Source: a virus
Reading direction: 5' to 3' (one strand)
IMG/VR virus record: IMGVR_UViG_3300020185_000146
Span: 1 to 34,311 of that record
Length of the DNA stretch: 34,311 nt
Made by a program: the position numbers and the translations under genes. The notes beneath the pieces were generated by a model that saw nothing but the letters and a program-made list of their open reading frames with translations, was not told the DNA's origin and did no database searches. Positions 9,383-33,692 of this stretch are shown here, piece by piece; positions within the stretch are counted from its first letter, which is position 1, and every line of letters begins with the position of its first letter.

Positions 9383-12300
9383 TCATTGAATTCTATATGA
9401 ATTTCTTCCTATTGATTCCCCTACTTTATTACCATCTAATTCTACTATAACAGGGCGGTTTACTACTTGATTCATTTGTTGAACAAATTGTTTCATAGTT
9501 GTATCTAAATCTGCTACTTTTTGTTCTAAAGTAGAATTATCGGTTGTTACATTTTCTACTACTGGGGTATTTTGTGGTATATTATATGATGTAATAGTTT
9601 CAATGGAATTGGCGTTAGTCATACCATCATTAACATATGAAATGTTAGGAGAAACAACAACCCCATCATTAGTTGCAGTAACCGCAGTGGACCCAAATCT
9701 ATCTGTTATTGAAAAGGGGCCTCTTGAAGGTGATGCAGATCCATCTTCTACTTTTTGTGGTAACTCAGTAAAAGCATTAACCATAAATTCTCCTAATCCT
9801 CCAGAACCAAACTTATCGGCTATTGCTTTTCCTAAAATTTGACCTAAAATACCTCCTACAATACTTCCAACTATAGTTCCAGGGGGTCCTAAAAGTGGGG
9901 TTAATGCTATTCCTCCTAATATAGAGCCCCCCATACCACCTAAGGTTTCATATCCAATACTTCCAAGTTCTTCATATAATTTTGAAATAGGTGGAGATTG
10001 AGGATCATTTTTATATTCCTGTATAGCTTCATAACCTTTATATCCTCCTAGTAAAGCATCTATAATAGGACCAATATAAGGTAATTTTTTAGTAGTGTTT
10101 TTAGCTAAATTAAATGCTCCTTTTTTAATAGGGGATGAATTAAATATTTGACCTACTATTGATGGAGCATTACTTCCTAATTCTCCAAATGTATTATACA
10201 ACCATTCTTGAGGGCTTGAAATGAATTCTGATGCTACTTTTGCTGAGGAGATGCCAAATTCTGTTACTAAGTTATAATAATCTTTAGAGGCTTCAAATAC
10301 TTCTCCAAAGAAACCATCTCTTGTATAAGTTAACGATTTCTTTTCTAATTGGCCTTGTGGGCTAAGCATAAAATCAGGAGTTTGGGCTAAAGGAGTACTA
10401 GTTTGAGGTATTTCAGGTTGAGAAATTAATTCAGGTTGAGAAACTATTTCAGGGTTATCTTTTAAATATTCTGCAAATTTCTTAGGTGTAAATAAGGCTC
10501 TATATGTTCTACCTCCTACAATTCCATCACTATTTAAACCTTGTGAAGATTGATATTGTTTTAAATATCTACGAGATCCCCCACCATAAAAACCATCTGA
10601 GAATCCCTCATCTAAATTATAAGTATCTTTTAATGTGGTTTGTACATCTCTTACTAAAGTATTTTTTCCTACATCCTGCATTTTATATTTAAGGAGTTTA
10701 TCTTTTTCATAGACTTCTTCGTGAGTAGGTGCGGGGGTGTAACCTTTTCTTAATGTAAGCTCTTCAACTTGAGGTGAAATGTTTTCTAATACTATTTTAT
10801 GAAATTCTGCTTTTGATTCTGTTTTAGATTCTATTGAATTTTGAAGTTCTTCACCAAACCTTCCAGCAGGTTCTATTTCAGGGGAGGTTAAAAGTAAAGG
10901 TTGGGAAAATGCTATCTCTGGGGAAGGTTCGTTTATTTTTTCATTTGTTTTTATTTGTCTTTCAGCTCTTCTCTTGGCTCTTCTTGCTTGTCTTTCAACT
11001 TTTCTTTTAGCTCTTCTTGTTTGCCTCTTTTCTCTTTCACTTTGTTCTATAGGTGAAGGTTTTATTCCTAAAAGTTCTGTAGGGTGTTCTATTTCTAATC
11101 TATTATTTTCAACATAATCAAAAATGTCTATTAATTCAAGAGGTTTTAATTTTTTATCTGCTCTTCGTTGTTTTTTTCTTTCTTTTTTTTCTTTACGAGA
11201 CACAGCATCTTGAACTCTTTGAATAGAACCCTCCTCATATTCACCAGTTTTGGTAGATAAATTAGCAGAAGGTACAACTCTAGAGCCATATTCTTTTTTA
11301 CCAAAAATATAATCCCATCCTGTAGGAACGCCTATCTTAGGATTAATAGCAGATCTAAACATCTCTGCTTTTTCTTCACTTACATAATTTTTTATAAATT
11401 GAATAATATTTTCTCTGTATTGGGGTACAAAGAAGTCTCTTATATCTCTAGCTGCTCCGCCTCCAGCATAGCGATTTTTATGTGTGCTCCTAGGAGTTTT
11501 TTCTATATTGCCTATTATTCCAGGAAGTGGAGTAAAATCGTAAGGATTTAGACCTAATTCATTATACCTAGTATCACCCGTTTGTCCCTTAAGATTTTTT
11601 CTTATATCACGAGGAATGTAATTATAATAAGTACTATATAATGAGTTTTCTATAAAATCTTCAACCCCTTCAGAAACTACAAAATTCTTGTTAATAAAAT
11701 GGGTTTGATTTTGCTCTTTGGGTAGTACGGCTTGATATGAAGTAGCATTTCTAATAGAATTAAAAGTGCTAACAAGATCATTAATTCTTGTTGTATCAAA
11801 GTCTATTAACTCTGAGGTTCTTTCTTGGTTAAATCCGATTGTGTATCTGTGAGCTAATCCTTTTCCTAACCTTTCAATAGCTCTATATAAAGCTAATAAA
11901 CCATTCCCCGAAGCTGAAATAGATTCAATATCATTTGTTTTGTAATTAATTGCTGGGAAGCTTAATTCTCCTGAATTGGTGATTTGGTCTTGTTTTCCAT
12001 CTTGGTAATTTACAATAAATGAATCTTTTGCTGGTGGAGTATTGGCTGATGGGGTAAAATTAGATAATAGTTGGCTATCTGCCATGTTTTTCATAGTACT
12101 ATTAAAATATTTTTTACCAAAGGATTCTACAGCTTGTGCCGTAAATAAATCTTTATAATTTTCAGAGGTAACTCCAGTAACTCCTAATTGTTGAATAGTA
12201 TTAAGGTTATTAATTTGGGTTGATGATGTTGTTCCAGCAACTTCCGTATATGAAATATTTCCGGCAGTTCCATCTTTAACTTTTTGGACCATCACCCCAG

Positions 12301-15300
12301 ATTGACCAACTTTAACATCTAAAGCACCAAAATTTTCACTTACCGGGAATACCGGACCTCCTTTTCCAGACATTCCATCAGATACATAAGAAACATTTGG
12401 TGATACTACCAATTTATCGTTAGGATGGGTAATAGCTAGATTACCATTGACATCTTCGATTTTAAAGGGACCATTATTTGAAATGGAAGCAGCATCTGCT
12501 ACTTTTTGAACATTATGAAATGTTGTAACTCCATCATTTGTTTCTTGTGTGACTCGGCTGTTAAAGGATTTTAAAAGTGTGCTCATAACATCTTCATTAA
12601 CACCCTCGTTTTTTTGAAGATTTACGATTATTTCCTCAATATTCTTAAGTTCTTCACTACTTATCCCTTCACTAGCAAAACCTTGGATACTATTAAGTTG
12701 TTTCTCAGTTAAAATACTTTTAAATGTCTTACCATCTCCAATTTCAAAATCTAAAAGATTGCTAATTAAATTATTTGCCTCATCTTCTCCTGTTTGTGCG
12801 TTAAAAGATTTATATAGTTTTTCAAGTGATTCATTTATAAGATTAGCATTGATTGCCATTTGGTTTGATTGGACCCCCACTTGTGATACGTAGTTTTCAT
12901 TTCTAGCAAGGGCTGTTTCTAAGGTTTTCCCAACTGCCATTAAACCTGCCGCAACCATGTCCCCAGTTTCTTCTAAATCCTTATCCAAAAACTCCGTTCC
13001 TAACTTACTTTGCTGTTCAACTGCTGCTCTAGTTGCTATGTCTAGTTGTTCAGGATTTAAAATTCCTCCAGTTGTTTCACTAATTAATTTTTTAGTTGCT
13101 TCAAATAATGTTTGGGTTTCAGTAATAGCTTCTTCAGCAAATTCTTTAGCCATTTGGCGCTCAAAACCAAACCCGGTCATTAAAGCTTTTTCAACTGCTT
13201 GAATTTGGTCTTCTTTGTTATCAGATGAATCAATTGCATCTTTTAGTTTTACCGTTCCTAGACCACTTCTATCACGTATAACCCTAAAACCCTCAATTGT
13301 CTTTTGAAGATCTTCAAATTGGGCTTTTTGATTATCATCTAAAATCTCTGATTTAAATTCATCATCATTTAAAAAGTTATTGATAACATTTTGCTTGGCT
13401 TCTATGCTGCCTTTATCTCCAAATAATCTATCAGCTTCCTTTTGTGCTAATTTAGTTTGAGCATCTATTACACCTTGTGTTGAGGTCTCTAATTCAGCAA
13501 ATTTAGTTTTTTGGTTATCAATAGCGGTTTCTAATAAAGTTGAAGATGTGATAACTCCACTAATAGCATCCTCATATTGTTTGGTTGTAATTTGCCCTGA
13601 AAGGAGGAGGTCATCTGCAAATTCTTTTAATTGGAGACCTGTTAATTCTAAAGCTCCATTAACCATAACCCCACTATCTTCAGCTAATGAATCAAATCCA
13701 CTTTGGAGGTTTGTTGTTGATTGAATTAATAAAAATTCTTGCTGTGCCTTTCTAAGGGATTGAGCTGCCTCTCTTTGTTTTTCGGATTCTACTAATTTTT
13801 TTCTAGCTTTATCTAAGGAGTCTTGATATTTTTCCATAGACCCTACAGCTCTACCTCCAAAATATCCTACACCCGCACCAATACCAGCACCAATTGCTGT
13901 ACCTACTCCTGGTAGGATTAAAGTACCTATAGCAGCTCCTAAAGCAGCTCCTCCTCCTGCTCCTACAAGTCCTCCTAAAGCTTCAGCACTTTCTCCTTCT
14001 GTGTTTCTTTCATTTAGTTGAGCAACATCATAAGCACCTTTAGCTACAAAACCTGCAGCGGCAAGGGCACCTGCTACTGTTGCTAAGCCTGCAATGGCAG
14101 TTCCAGTTCCTGCTGCTGCTGTGTTTCCTGCTACAGTAGCGGTTCCTGCTCTTGCAGCATTTTGAGCAGCTGCTCCATATAATCTTGTTCCAGCAGCATT
14201 GGTTACTACAGCTCCTCCTTTTGTACCTAATTGACCTGTTATATTAGGACTTAAAGTAGTAGCTATTCTACTTCCAAATCTACCTAAACGAGTACCTTGA
14301 GCAAATCCTGTTCCTCCTTGGGGTATTCCCCCTGTTTTAGATATGTCTCTTACATACATAGGATTTAAAGGGGTAGCTCCCATTTTAAATAAAAGTTGCA
14401 AACCTTTTAAACCAGCCGCCCCTAGGATTATTTTTATAGGATTTTCTTTAATATAATTAATAGTAGCTTTTAATCCCTCATAAAAGGAAACTACTCCACT
14501 TGCAGCTGATTTAATGTTGTCCGCTATTTTTCCAGCATCTATCCCTTTAATAAAATTTGCTACACTCTCAGCTGTTGATTTTACTATACTTAAAGATCTT
14601 TCTAAAGGATCACCTATATTAGAAATACCTTCTATATCAAATAATTCTTTTACTATGTCTCCGAGTAATCCATAAAAAGATTCAAATACATCATATACTG
14701 CTAAAAAAGTTTTTTTAATTTCAGGACCATGTTCTTTACTAAAGTCTATAAGGATTAATCCTATATCATTAAGTTTTTTACCTAATTTTGAGGCAGTACT
14801 AAGAAATCCCTTTTCTAAAGAATCAGAAGCATCTTCTATAGATATCCCAAATTCTTTAAAGAAAGGTTCCATTTCTTTTATCATTACCCCTCTAATGTCT
14901 TGCACTAGTTGTAATATACCTCTAAAAGCTTGTGCTACAGGTCTCATAGCTTCAGCCATCTCTAATTGTGATGTAACTAATGCTCTTTGTCTTTTAGCTT
15001 CTAATTCTTGTGCTGATGCTTTTCTAACTTGTTCTACTAATTCTCTGCTAGCCCCTTTTTCTCTCATTAAAGCCATAGCTTTTTCTTCAGAACCAGTTTT
15101 TTCAACTAATTTAAGATAATCTGCTTGAGCCTCACTCATGTCTTCAAACCCAGTGCCCGCTAAAAGTTCTTGAGTTTTGAGAACATCTGCTAATTCATTT
15201 CTAGTCATACCAACAGCAGCCGCTAATGCCTCTTGTTGGATAACATTCATTCTACCAAATTCAGCTGCTGATCCTGCTTGGCGGGATATTTCACTTGCTA

Positions 15301-17152
15301 ATGTTCCTAAATCATTATTTAAAGCTGCTTGTCTTGCTTTTTCAAGATTTAAATTTTTCCCAGTTAATAGCTCAGCTTCCATTTCTTTAGAAATAGAACT
15401 TTCAAAATCTAAAAGGCTGCTACCTATACTTTCTACTTTACTTAATTCTAAACCTAATTTTTTGGCATTAAAAGCAGCAATTCCTAAATTAGTACCATGG
15501 CCCCTTGAAGTTAATACTATAGCAGAACTAGCATTTGCTACTTCTTTCATTACCTCACTTTCATTAAGGGCAATATTTTCTCTTGCTTTTAACGATTTAA
15601 TTTGAAGACCATATTCATTATTTAATTCTTCAGCATTTTTTCCTTGAAGTTGCCCTAATTTAACAAAATCAGCGGCTTGTTTATTAGTAAATCCTAATCT
15701 TTGAACTAAAACTCCAAAACTTTCTACAGTTTCATCACTAAATTTTTGGGTAGTACCAAAAGCTTGTTGTAAACTTTCTGTTAACTTAAGAACTTCTTCA
15801 GGTAACATTGCTAATTTATTACCTATTCTATCGGCTTGATTAAATAAAGTTTTAGCTTCATTAGTACTTATGCCTAAATTAGTAGCTAAATCAGCTGTTG
15901 CTTGGGAGTATTTAAAGAGAAGTTCTTCACCTACTTTAAAAGATTGTACAAATCCTTTAATGCTGAAGAAAGAGTCCATAAAAAATTCTACAAATTCATT
16001 AAAATATCCTTTAATTTCTCCAGCTACTTTTTTGGCAGGAGCTAATAAAGCATTAAATGCTAATTTAAAAGGTTGTACAATAAATTTATTAAGGACTCCT
16101 AAAGTAAATAGTGCAAATATTTCTTTAGCTAAAACTTTAAGAAAACTACCTAATCCTTTAAAGAAAATGTTAAGTTTACTTCCCAATCCAACCGCTTCTT
16201 GTCCCGAGTTGGTTAATTGTTTAGCTAAATCTCCTGAGGCTTCACTACCTGCATCAATAGCATCTTGTATTTTAGAACCTTCAAACCCTAATCGTTTTAG
16301 GAGTTTACCTGAAATACCTAGTGTGTTATTATAGAAACTTTGGGCTCTATTTATAGTTTTTAATCTATTTTCTTGATCTTCAAGATAATCTAGTCCTTTT
16401 TCTTGTGCTATAAGCGTTTCTTGGAGGGCTAAAAGCATTTTTTGTTGAAGAGACAATCCATCTTCCTGCGTTTCAAGTTTATCTCGTTCCGTGCTTAAAC
16501 CTTCTTCATTTAATAAAAATTCTTTTTGTAAATCAGTTAAGTTCTTTGCTCTAGCTGATTTTTGGGCTTCCATTGTCATAAGGGAGGCTTCAGCTTGTAG
16601 ATAAGCTTCAGAATCCGCTTTTATTCCTGCAAGAGCAAGTTCATTAATAAATTCTTCTTGTTCTTTTATTTTTACTTGAAGGTCAAAAAAACTTTCAGCT
16701 TCATTAACTCTTTTTTTCCCTAATTTATCTTCTACAATTCTTTGTCTATCTTCTATGCCTAGGATTTTATTACGTTGAGCTTCAATTTTTTCTAAATCCT
16801 TTTTTTCTCTATCGTTTAATCTTTTAGTTTCAGCTCCTATATTATTAATAAGTTGTCTTCTATTACGTTCTGCTTTTTCAATATCTTTTTGAAGTTTTTT
16901 AATTTCTTCATAAGGATTTTGCATATCACGAGCAGCTTTAGCTACTTGTCTAATTGCAACAAGGGCTTGTTTATTACCTTCAGTAAAATCACCTTTTGAT
17001 AATCTACCTAAAGCTCTATATTGGTCTACTAATTCACTACTTCTAGAAGATAAAATAGATATAAAATCAGAAGCATCTGTTAAACCGCTAGTATATTCTC
17101 CTAAAGCTTTATTAAGTTCCCTTTGATTTCCTAACTGATCTTCAGTAGCCAT
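9383..17152 (-). CDS. Tail tape measure protein, very large (2589 aa)
   Basis: The N-terminal 75-265 residues are highly charged and heptad-like (coiled coil). Long Ala/Leu/Lys-rich helical stretches follow. Two glycine-zipper hydrophobic regions at about 1008-1110 and 2385-2455 could insert into membrane. Two very basic patches lie at about 1979-1997 and 2037-2072 (KEKKERKKQRR; RRAKRKVERQARRAKRR). About residues 2166-2221 resemble a peptidoglycan-binding type 1 repeat (DVQTTLKD..., DGFYGGGSRRYLKQYQSSQG, DGIVGGRTYRALF). A GPF.I.D....SPN.SYV.DGM motif occurs twice (about 1559 and 2477). The C-terminus VIVELDGNKVGESIGRNSYR is typical of tape measures. The location after tube and chaperone matches the usual tail-gene order. 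The protein sets tail length and is ejected into the host envelope. It is over four times T4 gp29 (590 aa). No lytic catalytic domain was recognised. Confidence 0.92.
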   Translation of the reverse strand: MATEDQLGNQRELNKALGEYTSGLTDASDFISILSSRSSELVDQYRALGRLSKGDFTEGNKQALVAIRQVAKAARDMQNPYEEIKKLQKDIEKAERNRRQLINNIGAETKRLNDREKKDLEKIEAQRNKILGIEDRQRIVEDKLGKKRVNEAESFFDLQVKIKEQEEFINELALAGIKADSEAYLQAEASLMTMEAQKSARAKNLTDLQKEFLLNEEGLSTERDKLETQEDGLSLQQKMLLALQETLIAQEKGLDYLEDQENRLKTINRAQSFYNNTLGISGKLLKRLGFEGSKIQDAIDAGSEASGDLAKQLTNSGQEAVGLGSKLNIFFKGLGSFLKVLAKEIFALFTLGVLNKFIVQPFKLAFNALLAPAKKVAGEIKGYFNEFVEFFMDSFFSIKGFVQSFKVGEELLFKYSQATADLATNLGISTNEAKTLFNQADRIGNKLAMLPEEVLKLTESLQQAFGTTQKFSDETVESFGVLVQRLGFTNKQAADFVKLGQLQGKNAEELNNEYGLQIKSLKARENIALNESEVMKEVANASSAIVLTSRGHGTNLGIAAFNAKKLGLELSKVESIGSSLLDFESSISKEMEAELLTGKNLNLEKARQAALNNDLGTLASEISRQAGSAAEFGRMNVIQQEALAAAVGMTRNELADVLKTQELLAGTGFEDMSEAQADYLKLVEKTGSEEKAMALMREKGASRELVEQVRKASAQELEAKRQRALVTSQLEMAEAMRPVAQAFRGILQLVQDIRGVMIKEMEPFFKEFGISIEDASDSLEKGFLSTASKLGKKLNDIGLILIDFSKEHGPEIKKTFLAVYDVFESFYGLLGDIVKELFDIEGISNIGDPLERSLSIVKSTAESVANFIKGIDAGKIADNIKSAASGVVSFYEGLKATINYIKENPIKIILGAAGLKGLQLLFKMGATPLNPMYVRDISKTGGIPQGGTGFAQGTRLGRFGSRIATTLSPNITGQLGTKGGAVVTNAAGTRLYGAAAQNAARAGTATVAGNTAAAGTGTAIAGLATVAGALAAAGFVAKGAYDVAQLNERNTEGESAEALGGLVGAGGGAALGAAIGTLILPGVGTAIGAGIGAGVGYFGGRAVGSMEKYQDSLDKARKKLVESEKQREAAQSLRKAQQEFLLIQSTTNLQSGFDSLAEDSGVMVNGALELTGLQLKEFADDLLLSGQITTKQYEDAISGVITSSTLLETAIDNQKTKFAELETSTQGVIDAQTKLAQKEADRLFGDKGSIEAKQNVINNFLNDDEFKSEILDDNQKAQFEDLQKTIEGFRVIRDRSGLGTVKLKDAIDSSDNKEDQIQAVEKALMTGFGFERQMAKEFAEEAITETQTLFEATKKLISETTGGILNPEQLDIATRAAVEQQSKLGTEFLDKDLEETGDMVAAGLMAVGKTLETALARNENYVSQVGVQSNQMAINANLINESLEKLYKSFNAQTGEDEANNLISNLLDFEIGDGKTFKSILTEKQLNSIQGFASEGISSEELKNIEEIIVNLQKNEGVNEDVMSTLLKSFNSRVTQETNDGVTTFHNVQKVADAASISNNGPFKIEDVNGNLAITHPNDKLVVSPNVSYVSDGMSGKGGPVFPVSENFGALDVKVGQSGVMVQKVKDGTAGNISYTEVAGTTSSTQINNLNTIQQLGVTGVTSENYKDLFTAQAVESFGKKYFNSTMKNMADSQLLSNFTPSANTPPAKDSFIVNYQDGKQDQITNSGELSFPAINYKTNDIESISASGNGLLALYRAIERLGKGLAHRYTIGFNQERTSELIDFDTTRINDLVSTFNSIRNATSYQAVLPKEQNQTHFINKNFVVSEGVEDFIENSLYSTYYNYIPRDIRKNLKGQTGDTRYNELGLNPYDFTPLPGIIGNIEKTPRSTHKNRYAGGGAARDIRDFFVPQYRENIIQFIKNYVSEEKAEMFRSAINPKIGVPTGWDYIFGKKEYGSRVVPSANLSTKTGEYEEGSIQRVQDAVSRKEKKERKKQRRADKKLKPLELIDIFDYVENNRLEIEHPTELLGIKPSPIEQSEREKRQTRRAKRKVERQARRAKRRAERQIKTNEKINEPSPEIAFSQPLLLTSPEIEPAGRFGEELQNSIESKTESKAEFHKIVLENISPQVEELTLRKGYTPAPTHEEVYEKDKLLKYKMQDVGKNTLVRDVQTTLKDTYNLDEGFSDGFYGGGSRRYLKQYQSSQGLNSDGIVGGRTYRALFTPKKFAEYLKDNPEIVSQPELISQPEIPQTSTPLAQTPDFMLSPQGQLEKKSLTYTRDGFFGEVFEASKDYYNLVTEFGISSAKVASEFISSPQEWLYNTFGELGSNAPSIVGQIFNSSPIKKGAFNLAKNTTKKLPYIGPIIDALLGGYKGYEAIQEYKNDPQSPPISKLYEELGSIGYETLGGMGGSILGGIALTPLLGPPGTIVGSIVGGILGQILGKAIADKFGSGGLGEFMVNAFTELPQKVEDGSASPSRGPFSITDRFGSTAVTATNDGVVVSPNISYVNDGMTNANSIETITSYNIPQNTPVVENVTTDNSTLEQKVADLDTTMKQFVQQMNQVVNRPVIVELDGNKVGESIGRNSYRIQ

Positions 17153-17177: not shown

Positions 17178-17207
17178 GGAAGGGTGATGCTTTCGCACCA
17201 CCCTTTC
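17178..17207 (-). terminator. GAAA-loop hairpin ending the chaperone unit
   Basis: On the coding strand the arms GAAAGGGTGGTGC and GCATCACCCTTCC flank a GAAA tetraloop. There is one G-U pair and one A-C mismatch. The hairpin begins at the stop of the frameshift ORF. It lacks a clear U-tract because the promoter-like motif follows immediately, so it could be a weak terminator or an mRNA 3'-end stabiliser. Confidence 0.55.
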
Positions 17208-17529
17208 ATATACGTTCCCCTGCTCTTATGTCTGAGGGGGGTTTAGCAAAGTCTATTTGTCTGCTACCTCCTGAAGATTGGGTTGGCTGGGATGCTTCAT
17301 TTTTTTGTTTTAGAAAATCTAATATTTTATTAAATGTAAATTTTCGCAACCAAATAGGCATGTTGTATACTGTATGCCAATCAAATCCCCCATTACCATG
17401 ATACACTATATCATGTATCATCCCAAACATATTTAATCTATATTCAGGCGTCAGGCCAAAAAAACGTGACCCCGATAGGGATCTTAACATCTTCTTGAGT
17501 ATCACCACCATCTTCGGGGTAAAAATCAA
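17206..17529 (-). CDS. Frameshift extension of tail assembly chaperone (GT-type, gp51-like)
   Basis: This open frame overlaps the end of the 263-aa chaperone gene and is in the +1 (equivalently -2) frame relative to it. The part upstream of the seven-T run is probably not used. The meaningful part (about 83 residues after the run) begins GLTPEYRLNMFGMIHDIVYH. It contains HTVYNMPIWLRKFTFNKI, similar to the 'Y.MP.WLR.FY..KI' signature that I associate with C-terminal parts of T4-like tail assembly chaperones. It then ends in a hydrophilic Ser/Gln-rich tail. A chaperone fused to such an extension, made at low frequency, is the lambda G/GT arrangement; the fusion would be about 342 aa. Independent translation from an internal ATG (the Met in NMFGM, for example) is possible. 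Its position between chaperone and tape measure supports the call. Confidence 0.7.
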   Translation of the reverse strand: MIFTPKMVVILKKMLRSLSGSRFFGLTPEYRLNMFGMIHDIVYHGNGGFDWHTVYNMPIWLRKFTFNKILDFLKQKNEASQPTQSSGGSRQIDFAKPPSDIRAGERI

Positions 17530-18235
17530 ATGTTAAGTCCATATCGGGCTGGATCTCCTTGATATGCTCTCTTAATGCTCTTGAATCACGAGCTAAGAAA
17601 TATTTGTCAACAAATTCTCTAATAGTTTTCTTTGAGTCATCCCCATTTACCGATAAAAGCATGTGCTTTAATCTAGTTGATAATTCAGCTGAGGATTGTT
17701 TGTTTATTTTTTTTAAACCTTTTACTTCACCTTCAATCATTTTTTCATCTTTATTATTTAAGATTTTAAATGTTACGGGTGTTTCAGTATGAGGAAGAGT
17801 ATAGTGGAATTCATTATTATTAGATTCTACTAAATCTTCTTCTTTAATCCATTTAGGATCAATTTCAGATAAATCAATTGTAACCTCTTGTCCTTCGTAT
17901 TCAAAGGTATAATCTTTACCATAGCCTAAAATGCGAGAGGCAACCATTATAGCGTTTTTATCGCCTACTACAAGGTCATCATAATTACACTTTGAAACAA
18001 TCAGCGATTGCATCAACTTGTCAAGAACAATGCCTTGTCTAATGTAATTTTGGTTAGTTAATATATCTTCTTCTTTAGCTGTCATGTATTTCATTTCAAC
18101 TTTACCAGAAGATAAGGGATTGTTTTTAGGATAAAGTAAACCTTTTGAAGGTAACTCTATAATTTCTGTAGGAAATTGGAATTTTTTTTCCACAGGCTCT
18201 ATTTCAGGAGCTTTAACTGTTTTTTCATCACTCAT
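17444..18235 (-). CDS. Tail assembly chaperone, T4 gp26-like
   Basis: This 263-aa soluble acidic protein has a disordered first 20 residues. ELPSKGLLYP follows, then VEMKYMTAKEEDILTNQNYI and LMQSLIVSKCNYDDLVVGDKNAIMVASRI...YG. This pattern (short 'LPSKG..YP', 'M...EE..L', 'L..GD....L...RI..YG') is that of the T4 gp26-type baseplate/chaperone family. Its location between tube and tape measure matches the lambda G position, so I favour a chaperone that coats the tape measure during tail assembly. The frame ends VTFFWPDA just past a run of seven T, where a frameshift would join it to the downstream 83-residue extension. A promoter-like motif lies 25 nt upstream and a terminator separates it from the tube gene. 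No Shine-Dalgarno is present. Confidence 0.8.
   Translation of the reverse strand: MSDEKTVKAPEIEPVEKKFQFPTEIIELPSKGLLYPKNNPLSSGKVEMKYMTAKEEDILTNQNYIRQGIVLDKLMQSLIVSKCNYDDLVVGDKNAIMVASRILGYGKDYTFEYEGQEVTIDLSEIDPKWIKEEDLVESNNNEFHYTLPHTETPVTFKILNNKDEKMIEGEVKGLKKINKQSSAELSTRLKHMLLSVNGDDSKKTIREFVDKYFLARDSRALREHIKEIQPDMDLTFDFYPEDGGDTQEDVKIPIGVTFFWPDA
17459..17465 (-). promoter_or_regulatory. Candidate programmed frameshift site (seven T, +1 or -2)
   Basis: Read in the chaperone frame the coding strand is ACG TTT TTT TGG CCT GAC GCC TGA. The downstream open frame reads TTT TTT GGC CTG ACG. The -1 frame stops within a few codons after the run (GCC TGA), so only a +1 or -2 shift gives a fusion. Phe-tRNA can re-pair on the T run for either. 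The GAAA-loop hairpin is about 250 nt downstream and is too far away to act as a stimulator. Confidence 0.6.
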
Positions 18236-18326: not shown

Positions 18327-18815
18327 TTAATAGTTTAATACACAGTAGTCAGGTGCTACAGTCATTGTAATAGACTGAGCTGTATTTTCTGTATCCCAGC
18401 TATAATCACCGAAATTAGCGTCTACAATAAAGCATCCTTTCAAAATCCATTCTGAAACTATATCACCGACAGGACCTAAAACACTTAATGTTAAGTCCTT
18501 TTTGTAATAATCAGAATAACCATCTCTACCTGTTACGGATTCGTGGTGTAATCTTACCCATTCCATTATTTGTTGGGTTCCCGAAGGAGAAATGGGGTCG
18601 TGCAAGGTTAACTGAACATTACCCCAAGTTGTTTTACCCTTAACTTTTCTGTACACGTTAATGTGATTAAGAGTTACTTCACCTTGTGTTAATGTAATAG
18701 CACCAACACCTTTTACTATATATGACTCAATGCCATCAACTGACATTAAGAATCTATTCTGTTGTTTGGGTTCAAACGCTGTAAAAAACAGCTCGTTTGT
18801 ATCTAATACTGCCAT
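18327..18815 (-). CDS. gp19: Tail tube protein, T4 gp19-like
   Basis: This 162-aa protein is almost exactly the length of T4 gp19 (163 aa). It begins MAVLDTNELFFTAFEPKQQNRFLM, followed by a strand ending in the IESYIVKGVGAI region and a central TTWGNVQLTLHDPISPSGTQ. That is the usual 'NRF.m.i.g......v.....p........v......v.G...WG.v.lt..Dp' tube pattern. A C-terminal GCFIVDANFGDYSWDTENTA and SITMTVAPDYC follow, as in the gp19 family, where the tube ring's outer strands end. It lies directly downstream of two sheath genes, as expected for the sheath-tube pair, and is followed by a strong terminator. The leader is A-rich (AAAATAAAAATAAGAAAAT before ATG) with no Shine-Dalgarno. The tube forms the inner channel of the contractile tail. 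Confidence 0.9.
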   Translation of the reverse strand: MAVLDTNELFFTAFEPKQQNRFLMSVDGIESYIVKGVGAITLTQGEVTLNHINVYRKVKGKTTWGNVQLTLHDPISPSGTQQIMEWVRLHHESVTGRDGYSDYYKKDLTLSVLGPVGDIVSEWILKGCFIVDANFGDYSWDTENTAQSITMTVAPDYCVLNY

Positions 18816-18870: not shown

Positions 18871-20640
18871 TTAAGCTGGGAATTCAGCACCTGTTGGTAA
18901 GACATTGAAGTCGAGTACTACAAATTCCGCAGATTTTACGGGTTGGAGGTAAATAGCACCTCTCAACTCATTTCTATCAATTACATCAGGACCATTGTTA
19001 GTATCATCCATTACTACTTTAAAAGCATATATGCCTTGTCTTTGTTGTACTAATTCCATATAAGGATTAACAACTGCAAGAAAAGCATTTCTAGTTGCTA
19101 AAGAGTTAGGTTCAAATACTAAATTTTGAGCAACATTACCAATAAAGTCTTTAAGTGTTATTAACAATCTTCTAACATTAACTCTGTCAGTTGCTGATGC
19201 CGCTGATTGTAATGTTTTTTGACCATATACCGCTACACCTGTAGATGGGAATTTAACAAGTGGGTTTACTTTATTTTCATACAAAGTATCTCTATCAGCT
19301 CTAGGTAATGTTCTTTCAGGAAGAACTACATTTGCTATATTACCTCTAGTTAAACCTGCAGGAGCAAACCATGCAGCTGATGTGTTATCATTAAAGACAT
19401 ATACTGATGGGATCAGAGTTGATGCAGGGCACCAAACTGCTTTACCAGTTTGTGAATCGTTTGTTAACAACCAAGGCCAATATGAAGCACCATATGAGGT
19501 ATTTAATAAATTAGCTTGAGTAGTTACGTCACTTACATCTTTTCCATAAGTAACTAAATCAATAGGTATAAGAGCATCTGTTCTAGTCTGTATATCGGTG
19601 ATAAGCTCATCAATTATACTTTTGTGAGTTGCAAATTCATATATTAATCCAGGTAAAGATATTACATTAAATTTATATTGATCTTTATTTTTTAAAATAT
19701 CAACAAAATTTGAATAATCAGCTGAAGGGGTTAATCCTTGAGAATTAGTATTAGTAATATTTTCATTCATATTACATCCACCTGCGGGAACTACAAGTCC
19801 TTTTCCTGAAGCAAAAGCTCCATTTTGAATAGCAGGAACTGAAGCGGTGAAATCAGCATTACTTATATTACCTGCTGCATCTAAATAATTAGGAGTTGTT
19901 TCATTTACTGCTGAAACATATACATAATTACTTTTAGAAGGATATTCACCATTAATTTTTACATAATAGTCGCTATTATCGGGGTCAATTCCTACTTCAG
20001 AATAAGTATCTCCAATTAATTTAGAAATATAATTGTCTGAAAAAGGGTCTAAGCTTACACCTCTATAGGTTTCAATTACTTTTTTATCCGTAGATTTATC
20101 ATCAGCTTGTCTGATAATAAGGGTAAAAGTACCTGAAGCTTCATCTCTAGAAGTAATTTCCCATCTTAAATTATCTTTAGAACCACTTACTAAAGTTGAA
20201 GTAGCGTGACTATTATAGAAGTCAGTAGACGAAGTACTATTCATCACAGCTCCTTGAGAAATTGTTGTTAATTCGAATACACCAGTTCCTGTATAAGTGC
20301 CATCATAACTTGCACTATTTCCTACTTTAGTAGATACTGAAGAAGTGAAAGAGGTAAAGTCACGAACTACCCTTTGTACTAATAAATTAGTACCTCCTTG
20401 TTGGAAGTAATTTTGGGCTGTTATTGAAGTTAAAAATGAGTAATCTTCTCCACCACTTAAAAAAGTAGTTCCGAATTTAGTTTTGAAGTCACTAAAAGTA
20501 GTTACTGTAGTAGGAATACCTACGGGTCCTAAAGGGGTAGGACCCACAACAGCTGCCCCTACAGGGGCGGCTGCTGCTTCTAATATTGTAGGCACATCCT
20601 CATTAGTAAATACTCCTGGTGAGATTATTTGTTCTGCCAT
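18871..20640 (-). CDS. gp18: Tail sheath protein, second copy
   Basis: This 589-aa protein is similar throughout to the sheath gene immediately upstream. It shares MAEQIISPGVFTNE at the N-terminus, GPTPLGPVGIPT with the matching strand near residue 35, NYFQQGGTNLLVQRV near 80, and a C-terminal domain with RVNVRRLLITLKDFI, NPYMELVQQRQGIYAFKVVM, NGPDVIDRNELRGAIYLQP and NVLPTGAEFPA. These are the features of the phage sheath family (T4 gp18, 659 aa), whose C-terminal domain carries the inter-subunit strands. The middle (residues 120-330) differs most between the two copies; in T4 the middle domains face outward. The gap to the upstream copy is 41 nt with no promoter motif, and the tube follows after 55 nt. 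Sheath assignment is secure. Whether both copies are in the virion is unknown. Confidence 0.93.
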   Translation of the reverse strand: MAEQIISPGVFTNEDVPTILEAAAAPVGAAVVGPTPLGPVGIPTTVTTFSDFKTKFGTTFLSGGEDYSFLTSITAQNYFQQGGTNLLVQRVVRDFTSFTSSVSTKVGNSASYDGTYTGTGVFELTTISQGAVMNSTSSTDFYNSHATSTLVSGSKDNLRWEITSRDEASGTFTLIIRQADDKSTDKKVIETYRGVSLDPFSDNYISKLIGDTYSEVGIDPDNSDYYVKINGEYPSKSNYVYVSAVNETTPNYLDAAGNISNADFTASVPAIQNGAFASGKGLVVPAGGCNMNENITNTNSQGLTPSADYSNFVDILKNKDQYKFNVISLPGLIYEFATHKSIIDELITDIQTRTDALIPIDLVTYGKDVSDVTTQANLLNTSYGASYWPWLLTNDSQTGKAVWCPASTLIPSVYVFNDNTSAAWFAPAGLTRGNIANVVLPERTLPRADRDTLYENKVNPLVKFPSTGVAVYGQKTLQSAASATDRVNVRRLLITLKDFIGNVAQNLVFEPNSLATRNAFLAVVNPYMELVQQRQGIYAFKVVMDDTNNGPDVIDRNELRGAIYLQPVKSAEFVVLDFNVLPTGAEFPA

Positions 20641-20681: not shown

Positions 20682-22445
20682 TTAAGCGGTAGGGAATTCA
20701 GCACCTGTTGGTAAGACATTAAAATCAAGTATTATAAATTCTGCAGTCTTAACGGGTTGGAGATAAATAGCACCTCTTAATTCGTTTCTATCAATAACAT
20801 CAGGGCCGTTATTAGTAGCATCCATTACTACTTTAAAGGCGTACAAACCTTGTTTTTGTTGTACAACTTCAAGATAAGGATTAACAACTGCCAAGAAACT
20901 ATTTCTAGTTGCTAAAGAATTAGGTTCAAATACTAAATCTTGAGCTACATTATTGATAAAGTTTTTTAAAGAAATTAACAATCTTCTAACATTAACTCTA
21001 TCCGTTGCAGAGGCTTTTGTTTGAAGTGTTTTTTGACCGTATACTACAACACCTGTGTTGGGGAATGTAGCAATAGGATTTACTTTATTAGTATACAAAG
21101 TATCTCTTGAAGATCTTGGTAATGTTCTTTCAGGGGCTATTACTTTAGGCATAGATCCTCTAGTAAAGCCTGCGGGAGCAAACCAAGCTTCAGCATTATT
21201 ATCATTAAAAACATATACTGATGGGATAATGGTTGATGCAGGCACCCAAGCATTTTTATTTAAATCTTCATCACGTACTTTAACCCAAGGCCAATAAGAA
21301 GACGCATATGAAGTATTTAAAGTACCTGCTTGAGTAGTTACAGTTGATAAAGCAGCATTATATGGAACTAAATCTATTGGAATCAAAGCATCACCCCTAG
21401 CAGTTAAATTAGTAATAATACTATCTAATTGTGTTTTATGACTGGATTGGTTATAAAGTAATCCCGGAGTAAATAACACATTATAAGGGAATTCATCTTT
21501 ATTCTTTAAAAGATTAATTGCACCTTCATAATCGTCACCTTCTAGTCCTTGAGTATTTTTATCTACAATATTTTCATTATATAAAGTACCTGCAGCTTGA
21601 GCTCCAAAAATTGTACCACTTGCATTTCCAAATGAACCACTTTGATTAGCAGGTATTTTAAAGGCATCCGCTGCTATTCTAATATTATTATCTTCGTCTA
21701 AATAATCAGGAGTAGTATAATTAACTGAATTAATTACCACATATTTACTAATATTTGGGTATTGTCCTGTTACACTGACATAATATCCGTTTGAACTATC
21801 TCCTGCAATAGATTTGACTTGGTTACCAACTCTTTTAGCAATAAAGTTTGGTGAACGTGGGTCTAGGTTAACTCCTCTAAAGGTTTCTAATATAATCTTT
21901 TCAGAATTTCTATCATCACCTTGTCTAACACTTAAAGTAAAAGTACCAGATCCTGTGTCTGCTTGGGAAATTTCCCATCTTAAATTGTCTTTAGTACCTG
22001 TTGGAAGAGTATTACCTGCGGCTTCGGTGTCACCAGTATTCATTTTATCCCCTTCAGAAATGGTATTAATTTGGAATACATTATTATCCGCTAAAGCACC
22101 ACCATCACTACCCGTTTCAATTTGAGAAGAAGTTGCTGCTGTAAAAGCATTACCAGCGTCTGAAGCACTAGCTACTCTAGTTACTAATAAACGTTGTCCT
22201 CCTTGTTGGAAATAGTTGTAAGCTGCTATATTGGTAAAATAGTTTCTAGCTACACCTCCACTAACAAAGGTACCACCAAATTTTTGTATATAGTCACTAT
22301 AAGTTGTTGTTATAGTAGGAACCCCAACAGGACCTAATACTGTAGGACCTATAATAGCAGCACCTACAGGTACTACGGGGGCTTCAGTTGTCACAGGAAC
22401 ACTTTCATTTGTAAATACTCCTGGTGAGATTATTTGTTCTGCCAT
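20682..22445 (-). CDS. gp18: Tail sheath protein, first copy
   Basis: This 587-aa sheath protein starts MAEQIISPGVFTNESVPVTT and has GPTVLGPVGVPTITTTYSDY, NYFQQGGQRLLVTRV, RVNVRRLLISLKNFINNVAQ, NPYLEVVQQKQGLYAFKVVM and, at the C-terminus, EFIILDFNVLPTGAEFPTA. It is the first gene of the sheath-sheath-tube unit and has a promoter-like motif 23 nt upstream. Both sheath copies share not only the coding ends but also the bases just before the ATG (AAATAAC and similar), which indicates a tandem duplication including the leader. Sheath subunits stack around the tube and contract to drive it through the host envelope. The two copies have diverged most between about residues 110 and 330. Confidence 0.93.
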   Translation of the reverse strand: MAEQIISPGVFTNESVPVTTEAPVVPVGAAIIGPTVLGPVGVPTITTTYSDYIQKFGGTFVSGGVARNYFTNIAAYNYFQQGGQRLLVTRVASASDAGNAFTAATSSQIETGSDGGALADNNVFQINTISEGDKMNTGDTEAAGNTLPTGTKDNLRWEISQADTGSGTFTLSVRQGDDRNSEKIILETFRGVNLDPRSPNFIAKRVGNQVKSIAGDSSNGYYVSVTGQYPNISKYVVINSVNYTTPDYLDEDNNIRIAADAFKIPANQSGSFGNASGTIFGAQAAGTLYNENIVDKNTQGLEGDDYEGAINLLKNKDEFPYNVLFTPGLLYNQSSHKTQLDSIITNLTARGDALIPIDLVPYNAALSTVTTQAGTLNTSYASSYWPWVKVRDEDLNKNAWVPASTIIPSVYVFNDNNAEAWFAPAGFTRGSMPKVIAPERTLPRSSRDTLYTNKVNPIATFPNTGVVVYGQKTLQTKASATDRVNVRRLLISLKNFINNVAQDLVFEPNSLATRNSFLAVVNPYLEVVQQKQGLYAFKVVMDATNNGPDVIDRNELRGAIYLQPVKTAEFIILDFNVLPTGAEFPTA

Positions 22446-26096: not shown

Positions 26097-27974
26097 TTAT
26101 GCTTTCTTAATATAATCTGGGGATGGGTTAAAATAAACTACATTAGTAGATATTTTATACCCCATTATTCTAACAATTTTTCCTGTTCCTGGTTGGGTTG
26201 ATGTTAGCCTCCCTACTGCTGTTGATAAATAAACAGGGTCTCCAGCACTACCTCCGGGATCAGTGGCCATGTATACTGGTCCTTCTAAAAGCATACCATC
26301 TGAGGGGTCACCTGCTGCTGCTGCTGCTGTTGCTACTGCCATCCATCCTTTAGATGTAGATTCATTATCGGCGTCAGCACTGCCCCATGCTGCACTATTG
26401 TAATAATAAACATATCCTGCTGAAATAGGATCAGGACTAGTAACGCTAGTATAAAATATACGAGAGCCAGGACCATATGTACCTGCTGAAGAAGCACCTT
26501 GGGGGGTTATTTTAATAGTACTAGCTGCTAAAATACCTGATAAAATGGCATCAGTTCCATCAAAAGTAAAATTAGCATCCCCATCTATTGAATTGGAATC
26601 AGTAAATGTTGCTATTCTATTATTTACTCCATTTGAAGCATCTACTAAAGCTGAACCCCAAACTCTAGAATCAATTTCATCTGTTTTTAAAACATTGTCT
26701 GAGTCTTTGATAACAACAGAATTATCTACTCCTGTAGGCATATTCGGTACTTCAATAGTATCCGATATTGTTACTTCTCCAGTAATGTCTAATAAAGTAC
26801 CATCAAAATTAAGATTAGCATTTACAACACCCCCACCTGTACCATCATAAGTAATAACACCATCTTGAGTAGTTCCTGTAAGATTTAGTAAACCTGATGA
26901 TCCTGATGTACCTGAAGTACCATCTGCTCCATTTTCACCTGAAGTACCTGATGATCCTGATGTACCTGAAGTACCTGAGGTACCATTGGCACCATCTGCT
27001 CCATTTTCACCTGAGGTACCTGATGATCCTGATGTACCTGAAGTACCTGATGATCCTGATGTACCTGAAGTACCTGAAGTACCATTGGCACCATCTGCTC
27101 CATTTTCACCTGAGGTACCTGATGATCCTGATGTACCTGAAGTACCTGATGATCCTGATGTACCTGAAGTACCTGAGGTACCATTAGCACCATCTGCTCC
27201 ATTTTCACCTGAGGTACCTGATGATCCTGATGTACCTGAAGTACCTGATGATCCTGATGTACCTGAAGTACCTGAGGTACCATTGGCACCATCTGCTCCA
27301 TTTTCACCTGAGGTACCTGATGATCCTGATGTACCTGAAGTACCTGAGGTACCATTAGCACCATCTGCTCCATTTTCACCTGAGGTACCTGATGATCCTG
27401 ATGTACCTGAAGTACCTGATGATCCTGATGTACCTGAAGTACCTGAGGTACCATTAGCACCATCTGCTCCATTTTCACCTGAGGTACCTGATGATCCTGA
27501 TGTACCTGAAGTACCTGATGATCCTGATGTACCTGAAGTACCTGAGGAACCACTTGTACCTGAGGTGCCTGAAGAACCTGATGTGCCACTAGTACCTGAG
27601 GAACCACTTGTACCAGATGTACCTGAGGAGCCACTTGTACCTGATGTACCTGAAGAACCTGATAATCCTGAAGTACCTGATGATCCTGATGTACCATCTG
27701 CTCCATTTTCACCTGAGGTACCTGAGGTACCTGAACTGCCTGAAGCTCCTGGTCCTAAAGGAATTTCAGTCCAACCATTAATATTAGCATAATTACTTAA
27801 ATCAGTAAGGATAAAATAACCTTCTACTCCAGATCCTGTTTGATATACTGTAAGGCCTTCAAATACATTGTCTGTTGCTAAACTAAACCTTTCAGTGGAA
27901 TTAGCCAGCGTGAACCTTGCGTCTACGGGTTGGTCATTACCTACTGTGAATCCGTCTCCTACTGATATTGGCAT
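26097..27974 (-). CDS. Collagen-like tail fibre with shared N-terminal anchor (625 aa)
   Basis: Residues 1-75 are homologous to the N-terminus of the 173-aa protein at 30599-31120. Both have GF..GN..PVD.R.T.A, then NVFEGL.VYQ, LTD.SN and NGWTEI, which suggests a common attachment module. Residues 77-365 are collagen-like, with tandem 33- and 24-residue blocks each containing ENGADGANG. The C-terminal 250 residues form a beta-rich domain with FDGTLLDITGEVTISDTIEV, RVWGSALVDASNG and, at the end, GRLTSTQPGTGKIVRIMGYK and YFNPSPDYIKKA, like other phage fibre tails ('...G.v.r.vG.......v.fnp...'). The start overlaps the preceding gene in TAATG. The gene and fibre role are secure; the receptor is unknown. 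Confidence 0.88.
   Translation of the reverse strand: MPISVGDGFTVGNDQPVDARFTLANSTERFSLATDNVFEGLTVYQTGSGVEGYFILTDLSNYANINGWTEIPLGPGASGSSGTSGTSGENGADGTSGSSGTSGLSGSSGTSGTSGSSGTSGTSGSSGTSGTSGSSGTSGTSGSSGTSGTSGSSGTSGTSGSSGTSGENGADGANGTSGTSGTSGSSGTSGTSGSSGTSGENGADGANGTSGTSGTSGSSGTSGENGADGANGTSGTSGTSGSSGTSGTSGSSGTSGENGADGANGTSGTSGTSGSSGTSGTSGSSGTSGENGADGANGTSGTSGTSGSSGTSGTSGSSGTSGENGADGANGTSGTSGTSGSSGTSGENGADGTSGTSGSSGLLNLTGTTQDGVITYDGTGGGVVNANLNFDGTLLDITGEVTISDTIEVPNMPTGVDNSVVIKDSDNVLKTDEIDSRVWGSALVDASNGVNNRIATFTDSNSIDGDANFTFDGTDAILSGILAASTIKITPQGASSAGTYGPGSRIFYTSVTSPDPISAGYVYYYNSAAWGSADADNESTSKGWMAVATAAAAAGDPSDGMLLEGPVYMATDPGGSAGDPVYLSTAVGRLTSTQPGTGKIVRIMGYKISTNVVYFNPSPDYIKKA
26885..27745 (-). repeat. 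Nested tandem repeat, 99-bp and 72-bp units
   Basis: The landmark CCATTTTCACC (plus strand) starts at 26929, 27001, 27100, 27199, 27298, 27370, 27469 and 27702/3. Spacings are therefore 72, 99, 99, 99, 72, 99 and then a longer irregular gap. Units differ by exactly 27 bp (three 9-bp subunits, TSGTSGSSG). Units are nearly identical in DNA, unlike the more degenerate 9-bp repeats in the other fibre genes, so the array is probably a recent expansion. Confidence 0.9.
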
Positions 27975-31124: not shown

Positions 31125-33692
31125 TTAAGTTGATAATTCATAATCTGCTGATGATCCCCCTCCTCCGGATTGAATAAATGTTGTTACATAAAATCTATAA
31201 CCCCCTATAGTACCTGTAGTGAAGGCTCCTATAGATCCAAAACCATCAATACTAATTGCGTTAAGAGTGTATGCATCATCCATCACAATATAAATATATT
31301 TGTCTCCGGACCATGATATTGTAAAGGTGTCACCATTTGGATTTTGGTTGTTAAAATCAAGTGTACCCCCATTATCTGTCCAATCTGCTACATCTAATAA
31401 TTCCGCCTCTGTAGGAGATAAATTACTAGTAAAATGACCTGATGGAAAAGCCGCATATCTTAAACTAATAATACGGTTAAATGCTTTACTTCTATTAACA
31501 GTTGTTGTTGTAGGGGTACCTAATCCATTCGAATTGTAATTACCCGTTATTGTTAAATTAGAGGGGTCACCCGTAGCTGTAAATGTTATAGTATTACCAC
31601 TCTTATTATTTTCTACACTTGTTTCAGCCCATCCTCTTAATGTGGCGCTACTAGCAGAAATATATGTAGCATCTCCCGTAACTCCTCTTTCTATAGCGGA
31701 TGTAGAATTATTAGTTTTGTTAGTTATATAATTATCATTTGATAACCCTGTCCATGTAAATGTATAATTGGGTTGATTTGGGTTAGCTTTACTTAAAGTA
31801 GTACCTGAGGCATCCCCCGAATCTATACTTATGTCTGATCCATCTTCTAATTGAACATTTAATCCAGCTTTAAATGTATGAGAACCCGAATGTAAATAGC
31901 TTACATAATCTTGTATATCAAACGTTATAGGAGAGCTATCTACACTAATAGTATCAATTTGGGTTTCAACCCCATTAATATCTGCTAATAAAGAAGCTGA
32001 ATTAAATGTATTAGTAGCATCTAATGTATATGGAAAACTAAATGTATAATTATCATCTATTACATATGAACCCGCACCTGGGCCACTAAATCTATCTGTG
32101 TTAAATCCTGATGTAGTAAGGGTTCCAGGTACAGGTAATGATGGGGTTCCAAATTGTAATATTAACTGCCCGCCACTAGCTGTAACAAATACATTATTAT
32201 CAAAATCCAATATTTTAAGGGTAGATAAATCTACTGCAGGTGAGGAACCAGTTTGATATTGGGTAGTATTTCCTCCTTCACCCCCACTTGATATTTCTAA
32301 TCTAGCTGTTCCTCCTCCTAAATCTGTTAATTCTCCACTTCCTGAAATCTCTAACCTATTAACTTCTGTAATATCTACAGAACCACTTACTATTTGTAAA
32401 CTAACCCCAGAAGTACCTGAAGTGCCACTAGAACCTGATGTACCACTTGTGCCTGAGGAACCACTAGAACCTGATGTGCCTGATAATCCTGAAGTGCCTG
32501 ATGTGCCTGAGGAGCCACTTGTACCTGCTGTGCCACTAGAACCTGAAGTACCATCTTCACCTGATATACCTGAAGTACCTGAAGAACCTGTTAAACCACT
32601 AGTACCTGAAGTACCTGAGGTACCTGATGTGCCACTTGTACCTGAAGAACCTGATGTGCCACTTGTACCTGAAGAACCATCTCTACCTGCTGTGCCACTA
32701 GAGCCTGAAGTACCATCTTCACCTGATGTACCTGAAGTACCTGAAGAACCTGTTAAACCACTAGTACCTGAAGTACCTGAAGTACCTGATGTGCCACTTG
32801 TACCTGAAGAACCTGATGTACCACTTGTACCTGAAGAACCTGAAGTACCATCTCTACCTGCTGTGCCACTAGAGCCTGAAGTACCATCTTCACCTGATGT
32901 ACCTGAAGTGCCTGAAGAACCTGTTAAACCACTAGTACCTGAAGTACCTGAGGTACCTGAGGTACCTGATGTGCCACTTGTACCTGAAGAACCTGATGTG
33001 CCACTTGTACCTGAAGAACCTGAAGTACCATCTCTACCTGCTGTGCCACTAGAGCCTGAGGTACCATCTTCACCTGATGTGCCTGAAGTACCTGAAGTGC
33101 CACCTGTACCTGATGTGCCACTTGTGCCTGAGGAACCTGATGTGCCACTTGTGCCTGAAGTACCAGGTGTACCTGGAGCACCTTCTTGGTTTATGGTCCA
33201 ATCATCATATGTACTTCCGTCTCCAGTTGAAGTAGAAGATACTCTTAACTCTCCAGTTCCACTTGTGTATTCTAATACAGTTGCTGTAAAACTATCATTT
33301 ATAGGGTCTGTAGTAGATGCTATTAGAGCAGATAAACCTGCGGACCATTGTAATCCAGTTTCTATTGTTAAAGATATTTCTATCCCTGTAGAAGTTGGGA
33401 TTGAAAATTCTGTGGAAGAAGTAGTAGAAAATCTATCAGAAGTACCACTTGTCCCACTAGTTCCTGCTGTACCAGAAGTGCCTGATGAACCACTTGTACC
33501 GGATTTACCTGTGGCTCCTTCACTAATTGTTACTACTTGGGTATATTCTTCTTGAACAATTAAGCTAGTTTGAGGTAATTCAATAGTAACAGACTTATTA
33601 CAAACTCTATCCGTAACAATAACCTTTTCATTTTGGTCTTGTAAGATAATTTGGTTTGGTTGGTCTGATATGTTGATTGAGTTACGACTCAC
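31125..33692 (-). CDS. Collagen-like tail fibre, GTG start (855 aa)
   Basis: The start is GTG at 33692-33690; no closer ATG preserves the N-terminus (SRNSINISDQPNQIILQD). Residues 1-60 are a beta-rich anchor. A short collagen segment (about 60-85) is followed by a globular insert at about 85-170 with LTIETGLQWSAG, DPINDSFTATVLEYTSGTGE and YDDWTIN. This is a module often found between collagen-like parts of phage fibres ('t.ETGL.ws.G......s.....f.a.v..Y.s.tG.L.v......G.....W.i'). Residues about 172-430 are collagen-like. The C-terminal 425 residues are a beta-rich receptor region ending GGGGSSADYELST. The start overlaps the 48-aa ORF by 11 nt. There is no promoter motif in front, so expression probably comes from upstream. 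Confidence 0.87.
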   Translation of the reverse strand: MSRNSINISDQPNQIILQDQNEKVIVTDRVCNKSVTIELPQTSLIVQEEYTQVVTISEGATGKSGTSGSSGTSGTAGTSGTSGTSDRFSTTSSTEFSIPTSTGIEISLTIETGLQWSAGLSALIASTTDPINDSFTATVLEYTSGTGELRVSSTSTGDGSTYDDWTINQEGAPGTPGTSGTSGTSGSSGTSGTSGTGGTSGTSGTSGEDGTSGSSGTAGRDGTSGSSGTSGTSGSSGTSGTSGTSGTSGTSGTSGLTGSSGTSGTSGEDGTSGSSGTAGRDGTSGSSGTSGTSGSSGTSGTSGTSGTSGTSGLTGSSGTSGTSGEDGTSGSSGTAGRDGSSGTSGTSGSSGTSGTSGTSGTSGTSGLTGSSGTSGISGEDGTSGSSGTAGTSGSSGTSGTSGLSGTSGSSGSSGTSGTSGSSGTSGTSGVSLQIVSGSVDITEVNRLEISGSGELTDLGGGTARLEISSGGEGGNTTQYQTGSSPAVDLSTLKILDFDNNVFVTASGGQLILQFGTPSLPVPGTLTTSGFNTDRFSGPGAGSYVIDDNYTFSFPYTLDATNTFNSASLLADINGVETQIDTISVDSSPITFDIQDYVSYLHSGSHTFKAGLNVQLEDGSDISIDSGDASGTTLSKANPNQPNYTFTWTGLSNDNYITNKTNNSTSAIERGVTGDATYISASSATLRGWAETSVENNKSGNTITFTATGDPSNLTITGNYNSNGLGTPTTTTVNRSKAFNRIISLRYAAFPSGHFTSNLSPTEAELLDVADWTDNGGTLDFNNQNPNGDTFTISWSGDKYIYIVMDDAYTLNAISIDGFGSIGAFTTGTIGGYRFYVTTFIQSGGGGSSADYELST
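32405..33175 (-). repeat. Collagen-like repeat block with 9-bp step variation
   Basis: The landmark CCATCTTCACCTG (plus strand) starts at 32551, 32713, 32884 and 33064. The unit lengths are therefore 162, 171 and 180 bp, each differing by exactly one 9-bp subunit. Each unit encodes collagen-like GTS/GSS with an 'SGEDGTSGSSGTAG' landmark. Confidence 0.85.

Follow-up and report, generated by a model that had tools for sequence, protein, structure and literature searches.

Tail assembly chaperones of the lambda G/GT type come in two forms through programmed frameshifting, and the kind of shift varies: the tail genes of Mu use a -2 shift and those of HSTV-2 likely a +1 shift, both of which reach the +1 frame, and T4 has been named as an exception to the G/GT frameshift (PMC5009743). 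We found no report of frameshifting in the T4 gp26/gp51 family in the open-access literature. When a hairpin refolds immediately 5' of a slip site, it stimulates +1 and attenuates -1 frameshifting in yeast and with 70S ribosomes, with an effect that varies with its stability and spacing (PMC3639245, PMC6321510), and a hairpin beside the E site is reported to favor +1 (PMC6321510).

The DNA analyzed here (hereafter, the window) is a stretch of 34,311 nucleotides from IMG/VR virus record IMGVR_UViG_3300020185_000146. A preliminary description of it had proposed a tail assembly chaperone gene with a +1 or -2, rather than -1, frameshift on seven T.

Results

Gene order and the core family

The genes concerned lie on the minus strand in the order sheath, tube, core, extension reading frame and a large presumptive tape measure reading frame. 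The tail sheath protein (18871..20640) matches phrog_23 with an E-value of 3e-64, and the gp19-like tail tube protein (18327..18815) matches phrog_4542 (E 2e-25), its match to PF06841 being below the cut-off. The 2589-aa reading frame at 9383..17152 is presumed to encode the tape measure protein from its size and position, and its equivalent in Flavobacterium phage immuto carries a tape measure annotation. The core-extension pair sits where G/GT-type chaperones sit, between the tail tube and presumed tape measure genes, and the order given in the preliminary description agrees with the phrog matches. Elsewhere in the window, there are tandem tail sheath genes (18871-20640 and 20682-22445, both matching phrog_23 at about 1e-64), and the reading frames at 26097-27974 and 31125-33692 match tail fiber and collagen-like minor tail families.

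Judged by profile and structure-model comparison, the core gene product (17444..18235, minus strand; 263 aa), the putative G form, is a member of the T4 gp26 family. It matches phrog_150 (E 1e-4) and has no PF12322 match itself; relatives that align with it match PF12322 (T4_baseplate) with E-values from 4e-15 to 1.5e-28. The AlphaFold model of the core, which was folded separately from the extension, has a pLDDT of 90.6, and Foldseek relates it to models of the gp26 family, with SP-15 gp26 at an E-value of 4e-16. Among PDB folds, the match to the HK97 chaperone 2ob9 was not significant (E 3-4; TM by target 0.38-0.42).

As first described, the core ends just after ACG TTT TTT TGG: its 3' end reads GGG GTC ACG TTT TTT TGG CCT GAC GCC TGA (reading frame 18235-17444), and the sole long continuation is the reading frame at 17532-17206, in the +1 (equally -2) frame. 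The seven T (17458..17464) are read as TTT TTT T|GG, preceded by the spacer codon ACG (17465..17467) and by the predicted hairpin GATCCC(TATC)GGGGTC (17468..17483; -7.7 kcal/mol), which ends 3 nt 5' of the run. Counted from the slip site, the extension (17206..17463), which would form the T part, comprises 85 codons and a stop, and the product of its reading frame includes RFFGLTPEYR...WHTVYNMPIWLRKF.

The frame offset and the extension in relatives

A scan of viral contigs yielded 80 relatives, in which all readable extensions lie in the same frame as that of the window. Further scans brought the number of loci whose frame could be classified by core and extension profiles to 164; in 162 of these the extension is in the +1/-2 frame, the two others being RAS14, a distant jumbo phage with a -1 extension, and the locus L169. 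In contigs from bacterial and archaeal bins, 15 of 16 readable cases are +1 and the remaining one (L193) is -1. The +1 arrangement is also present in isolates, among them Flavobacterium phage immuto, Microcystis phage Mel-JY01, Bacillus phage SP-15, Listeria phage LIS04 and Streptococcus phage GXN1. In immuto, the site reads AGC TTT CTT TGG. No relative in the window's clade joins core and extension in one continuous frame. In L169 (~2169-2408), the core belongs to the +1 clade, but TTC TTT TGG CCC TCC CGG TAA is followed by an extension that reads in the -1 (=+2) frame, owing either to an indel in the assembly or to a different type of shift.

The extension evolves as a protein. Among close relatives, its first 50 codons have a dN/dS of 0.14, close to that of the core end (0.10), and the identical bases read as a continuation of the 0 frame give 1.25; this purifying selection is evidence of coding. 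Across 34 diverse members, the extension residues L5, Y34, P37 and R41 are invariant, and in distant members homology in the extension frame starts where the slip site encodes FF. Synonymous identity is in excess by +0.34 to +0.44 at codons -1, 0, +1 and +2 around the slip in 117 non-redundant loci, compared with mostly about +0.05, and at most +0.21, elsewhere. Taken together, the shared offset in viral and bin contigs, the dN/dS of the extension and this synonymous freeze support the proposal of a tail assembly chaperone with a +1/-2 shift.

The slip site

Ten site types occur among 176 sites: TTT TTT TGG (120), TTT TTT TAC (37), TTT CTT TGG (9), TTT TTT TTC (3), TTT TTT CAC (2) and, once each, TTT CTA TTC, TTC TTT CGT, TTT TTT AGT, TTC TTT TAC and TTC TTT TGG. 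Without regard to phylogeny, all 176 contain an in-frame TTT followed by T or C, so that tRNA-Phe could re-pair one base downstream with a cognate codon.

Of 86 contexts, only 1 has T as the base 5' of the run, whereas 38 would be expected from codon usage, in counts that likewise ignore phylogeny; that exception comes from a longer T run whose reading was set one codon too late, and in the relatives the spacer codon does not otherwise end in T. At the codon before it, used as a control, 34 codons end in T against 38.8 expected. A base before the run that is almost never T removes the -1 heptamer.

An upstream hairpin

The preliminary description saw no nearby stimulatory structure, a statement that does not hold for the sequence just 5' of the T run, which is more structured than codon-shuffled nulls that retain every protein and the codon usage of each column. 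When 36-nt segments were scanned across 112 loci, z ranged from 0 to -3.7 upstream and fell to -8.0 once the 3' end reached position -3, these values being inflated because the shuffled nulls break shared ancestry (the controls themselves reach -3.7). Strong contiguous stems whose ends fall at -6 to -1, among which 53 distinct hairpins are listed, occur in 41% of loci, compared with 8% at control positions and 16% (maximum 24%) in shuffled sequences. With loci thinned at 25% divergence (79 loci), the corresponding values are 35%, 7% and 14%, with a z of -7.3. The minimum free energy fold uses -9 to -4 as a 3' arm in 95 of 129 loci, against 11-49 at control positions; a clear upstream stem is absent in the other 34, about a quarter.

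Six defined pairs were scored in the 59 loci with Gly at codon -3: 80.5% of cells are paired, compared with 32-53% when the pairing is slid. Part of this pairing is imposed by the protein, because the arms of the hairpin overlie a conserved I-P-x-G-V motif. The covariation score of these loci is 0.222 versus 0.159, and none of 500 shuffles reaches 0.222; neither the number of doubly changed pairs nor that of pair types is above the shuffles. On these comparisons, the covarying 5' hairpin, which typically ends about 3 nt 5' of the T run, is probably a stimulator of the shift and is our candidate for that role.

Two other kinds of stimulator were considered and rejected. Internal Shine-Dalgarno pairing likewise stimulates +1 and attenuates -1 frameshifting. 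Neither form of it is universal here: GGG occupies codon -3 in 43 of 65 Gly codons, where it also fits the hairpin arm, and GGAGG-like stretches about 30 nt upstream of the site are found in only some loci. Bacteroidia ribosomes are described as sequestering the anti-Shine-Dalgarno sequence (PMC9976891), and since Flavobacteria are frequent among the named hosts and bin labels of the clade, the hairpin may replace the Shine-Dalgarno sequence.

A structure downstream of the site was also set aside. RNAalifold found no downstream consensus in 50 aligned loci, the z values from codon shuffling of the extension (-2.9 to -4.9) go only slightly beyond those of core controls (to -3.6), and a palindrome at the conserved codons for IHDIVYHG, with a z of 2.6, is mostly dictated by the amino acids. 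In the window, the palindrome ATGATACATGATATAGTGTATCAT lies within the extension at about 17400-17425 on the minus strand; near-palindromes recur in relatives and seem largely due to conserved codons.

Related clades

The distant members Atu_ph07, PA5oct, RAS14 and LR756511 have the extension in the -1 frame, at NNT TTT TTY. In 79 of 82 loci with gp26 of the cyanophage type (L195 and L211-L290), 'gp51' is likewise a -1 extension, with NNT TTT TTC lying one codon ahead of the stop, and these -1 sites have no upstream hairpin (6% vs 7%). The annotated starts of the 'gp51' hub assembly catalyst in cyanophages look artificial, for example in KBS-M-1A. Cyanophage S-SCSM1 (L194, ~2660-2700) has a U_UUU_UUC site and an extension that is nevertheless open in +1, or that has its own ATG.

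T4 genes 26 and 51 (L092, 4803-5429 and 5480-6229) both match PF12322; the match spans all of gp26, and gp51 has an additional 48 C-terminal residues. In pairwise hhalign comparisons, whose E-values are not corrected for a database, the probability is 97.9% between jumbo-type and window-type extension profiles, 93.9% between jumbo-type and cyanophage profiles and 96.3% between the cyanophage profile and the T4 gp51 C-terminus; window-type extension and gp51 C-terminus compared directly give 1.3%, which is not significant. The extension thus appears to be related to the gp51 C-terminus by way of intermediate clades. In a quick tree, T4 gp26 groups with gp51 and two changes between +1 and -1 are required, the deep placement being unsure on account of long branches. 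Since gp51 resembles core plus extension, the comparison suggests that in T4 a gene duplication replaced frameshifting, with the GT form encoded directly.

Discussion

The data presented here make it likely that one gene of the window yields two chaperones, the core (G) and a fusion (GT), by a programmed +1 shift at ACG_TTT_TTT_TGG that is aided by the upstream hairpin. In our proposal, P-site tRNA-Phe on an in-frame TTT followed by T or C would re-pair one base downstream, on another Phe codon. The mRNA hairpin about 3 nt 5' of the T run would refold behind the ribosome, beside the E site, where it would favor forward and disfavor backward slippage, and a base other than T would be maintained before the run, precluding the -1 heptamer U_UUU_UUU. 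If lambda is a guide, the role of G would be to coat the tape measure protein, and that of the T part of GT to recruit tail tube subunits. We infer the direction of the shift, the function of the hairpin, the roles of the proteins and the ratio of the products.

The frame reached is the one first described; the equal standing then given to +1 and -2 is what we would revise. A -2 shift like that of Mu (PMC5009743) would have the peptidyl-tRNA re-pair two bases upstream and give a product one Phe longer; it leads into the identical frame, and the T7 majority of sites is compatible with both. Cognate -2 re-pairing is possible at 163 of 176 sites, and TTT serves as the first Phe codon in 83 of 86 contexts, compared with a background of 78%, as -2 would prefer. 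However, 13 sites of five types (TTT CTT TGG, TTT CTA TTC, TTC TTT CGT, TTC TTT TAC and TTC TTT TGG) bar cognate -2 re-pairing and all of them allow cognate +1, in tallies that do not correct for phylogeny, and a hairpin adjacent to the E site is reported to favor +1 (PMC6321510). We therefore favor +1 and regard -2 as unlikely.

The remaining explanations, which do without a ribosomal frameshift, fare worse. Were the extension a separate gene with its own start, translationally coupled and never fused, its public annotation in immuto and Mel-JY01 as a separate hypothetical ORF would be correct, and a TAATG overlap of core and extension is indeed seen in the distant relative Cygsa01. In the 117 loci, however, there is no conserved start codon: candidate starts are scattered, the extension frame around the site lacks ATG in 58 loci and any of ATG, GTG and TTG in 26, and in 13 an extension-frame stop stands immediately 5' of the slip. 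A separate gene, whose conserved start codon had been named beforehand as an outcome that would speak against frameshifting, would also leave the frozen T run unexplained; homology sets in at the slip site, and we consider a separate gene very improbable. Transcriptional slippage on the homopolymer, producing mRNAs of shifted length, is more improbable still: seven T is short for it, interrupted sites (TTTCTTT, TTCTTTT, TTTCTAT) retain the frame offset, and a covarying hairpin lies directly 5' of the run. Homopolymers are also prone to sequencing and assembly error, and the offset of L169 does differ, but the same offset in 162 loci, including the isolates immuto and SP-15 and bin contigs, makes an error here hardly credible; the continuous frame in relatives that would have betrayed one was not seen in the clade.

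Our preferred reading, the programmed +1 shift, would bring the T4 gp26 family within the reach of G/GT frameshifting and give a fusion product that is missing from the phage annotations examined. More broadly, we are evenly divided on a two-part proposal for this T4-like clade, the hosts of which are probably mostly Bacteroidota: that a natural 5' hairpin at the E site drives +1 and replaces a poorly read internal Shine-Dalgarno sequence, and that the gene family has taken four routes to two chaperone forms, namely shifts of +1 and of -1, a small separate gene and, in T4, gp51 as a full-length second gene. If true, this second gene would explain why T4 lacks a G/GT frameshift, and the gp26/gp51 pair would be, as our comparison suggests, the same device split over two genes. 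A naturally conserved 5' hairpin would be a candidate +1 stimulator through which a mechanism studied in reporters becomes testable in phage.

Like the refolding hairpins of the reporter studies (PMC3639245, PMC6321510), the hairpin of the window lies directly 5' of the slip, beside the E site; those were constructs, whereas this is a natural, covarying element of the clade with a candidate role read from sequence. The Mu (-2) and HSTV-2 (likely +1) tail chaperone genes reach the +1 frame as that of the window would, with different slip sequences. T4 gp26 and gp51, the hub assembly chaperones of PF12322, share the core family, and the C-terminal part of gp51 appears related to the extension through intermediate profiles, but they are two separate, divergently oriented genes that use no frameshift. 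Cyanophage gp26/'gp51' shares the core family and has a related extension, reached, unlike that of the window, by -1 at NNT TTT TTC right before the stop and with no upstream hairpin. Finally, lambda G/GT shares with the window the position between tube and tape measure genes and a C-terminal extension gained by a frameshift close to where the first gene ends; lambda uses a -1 shift at a lambda-type site, whereas the window appears to combine a +1 shift, a T run and a 5' hairpin with an unrelated-looking core, that of T4 gp26.
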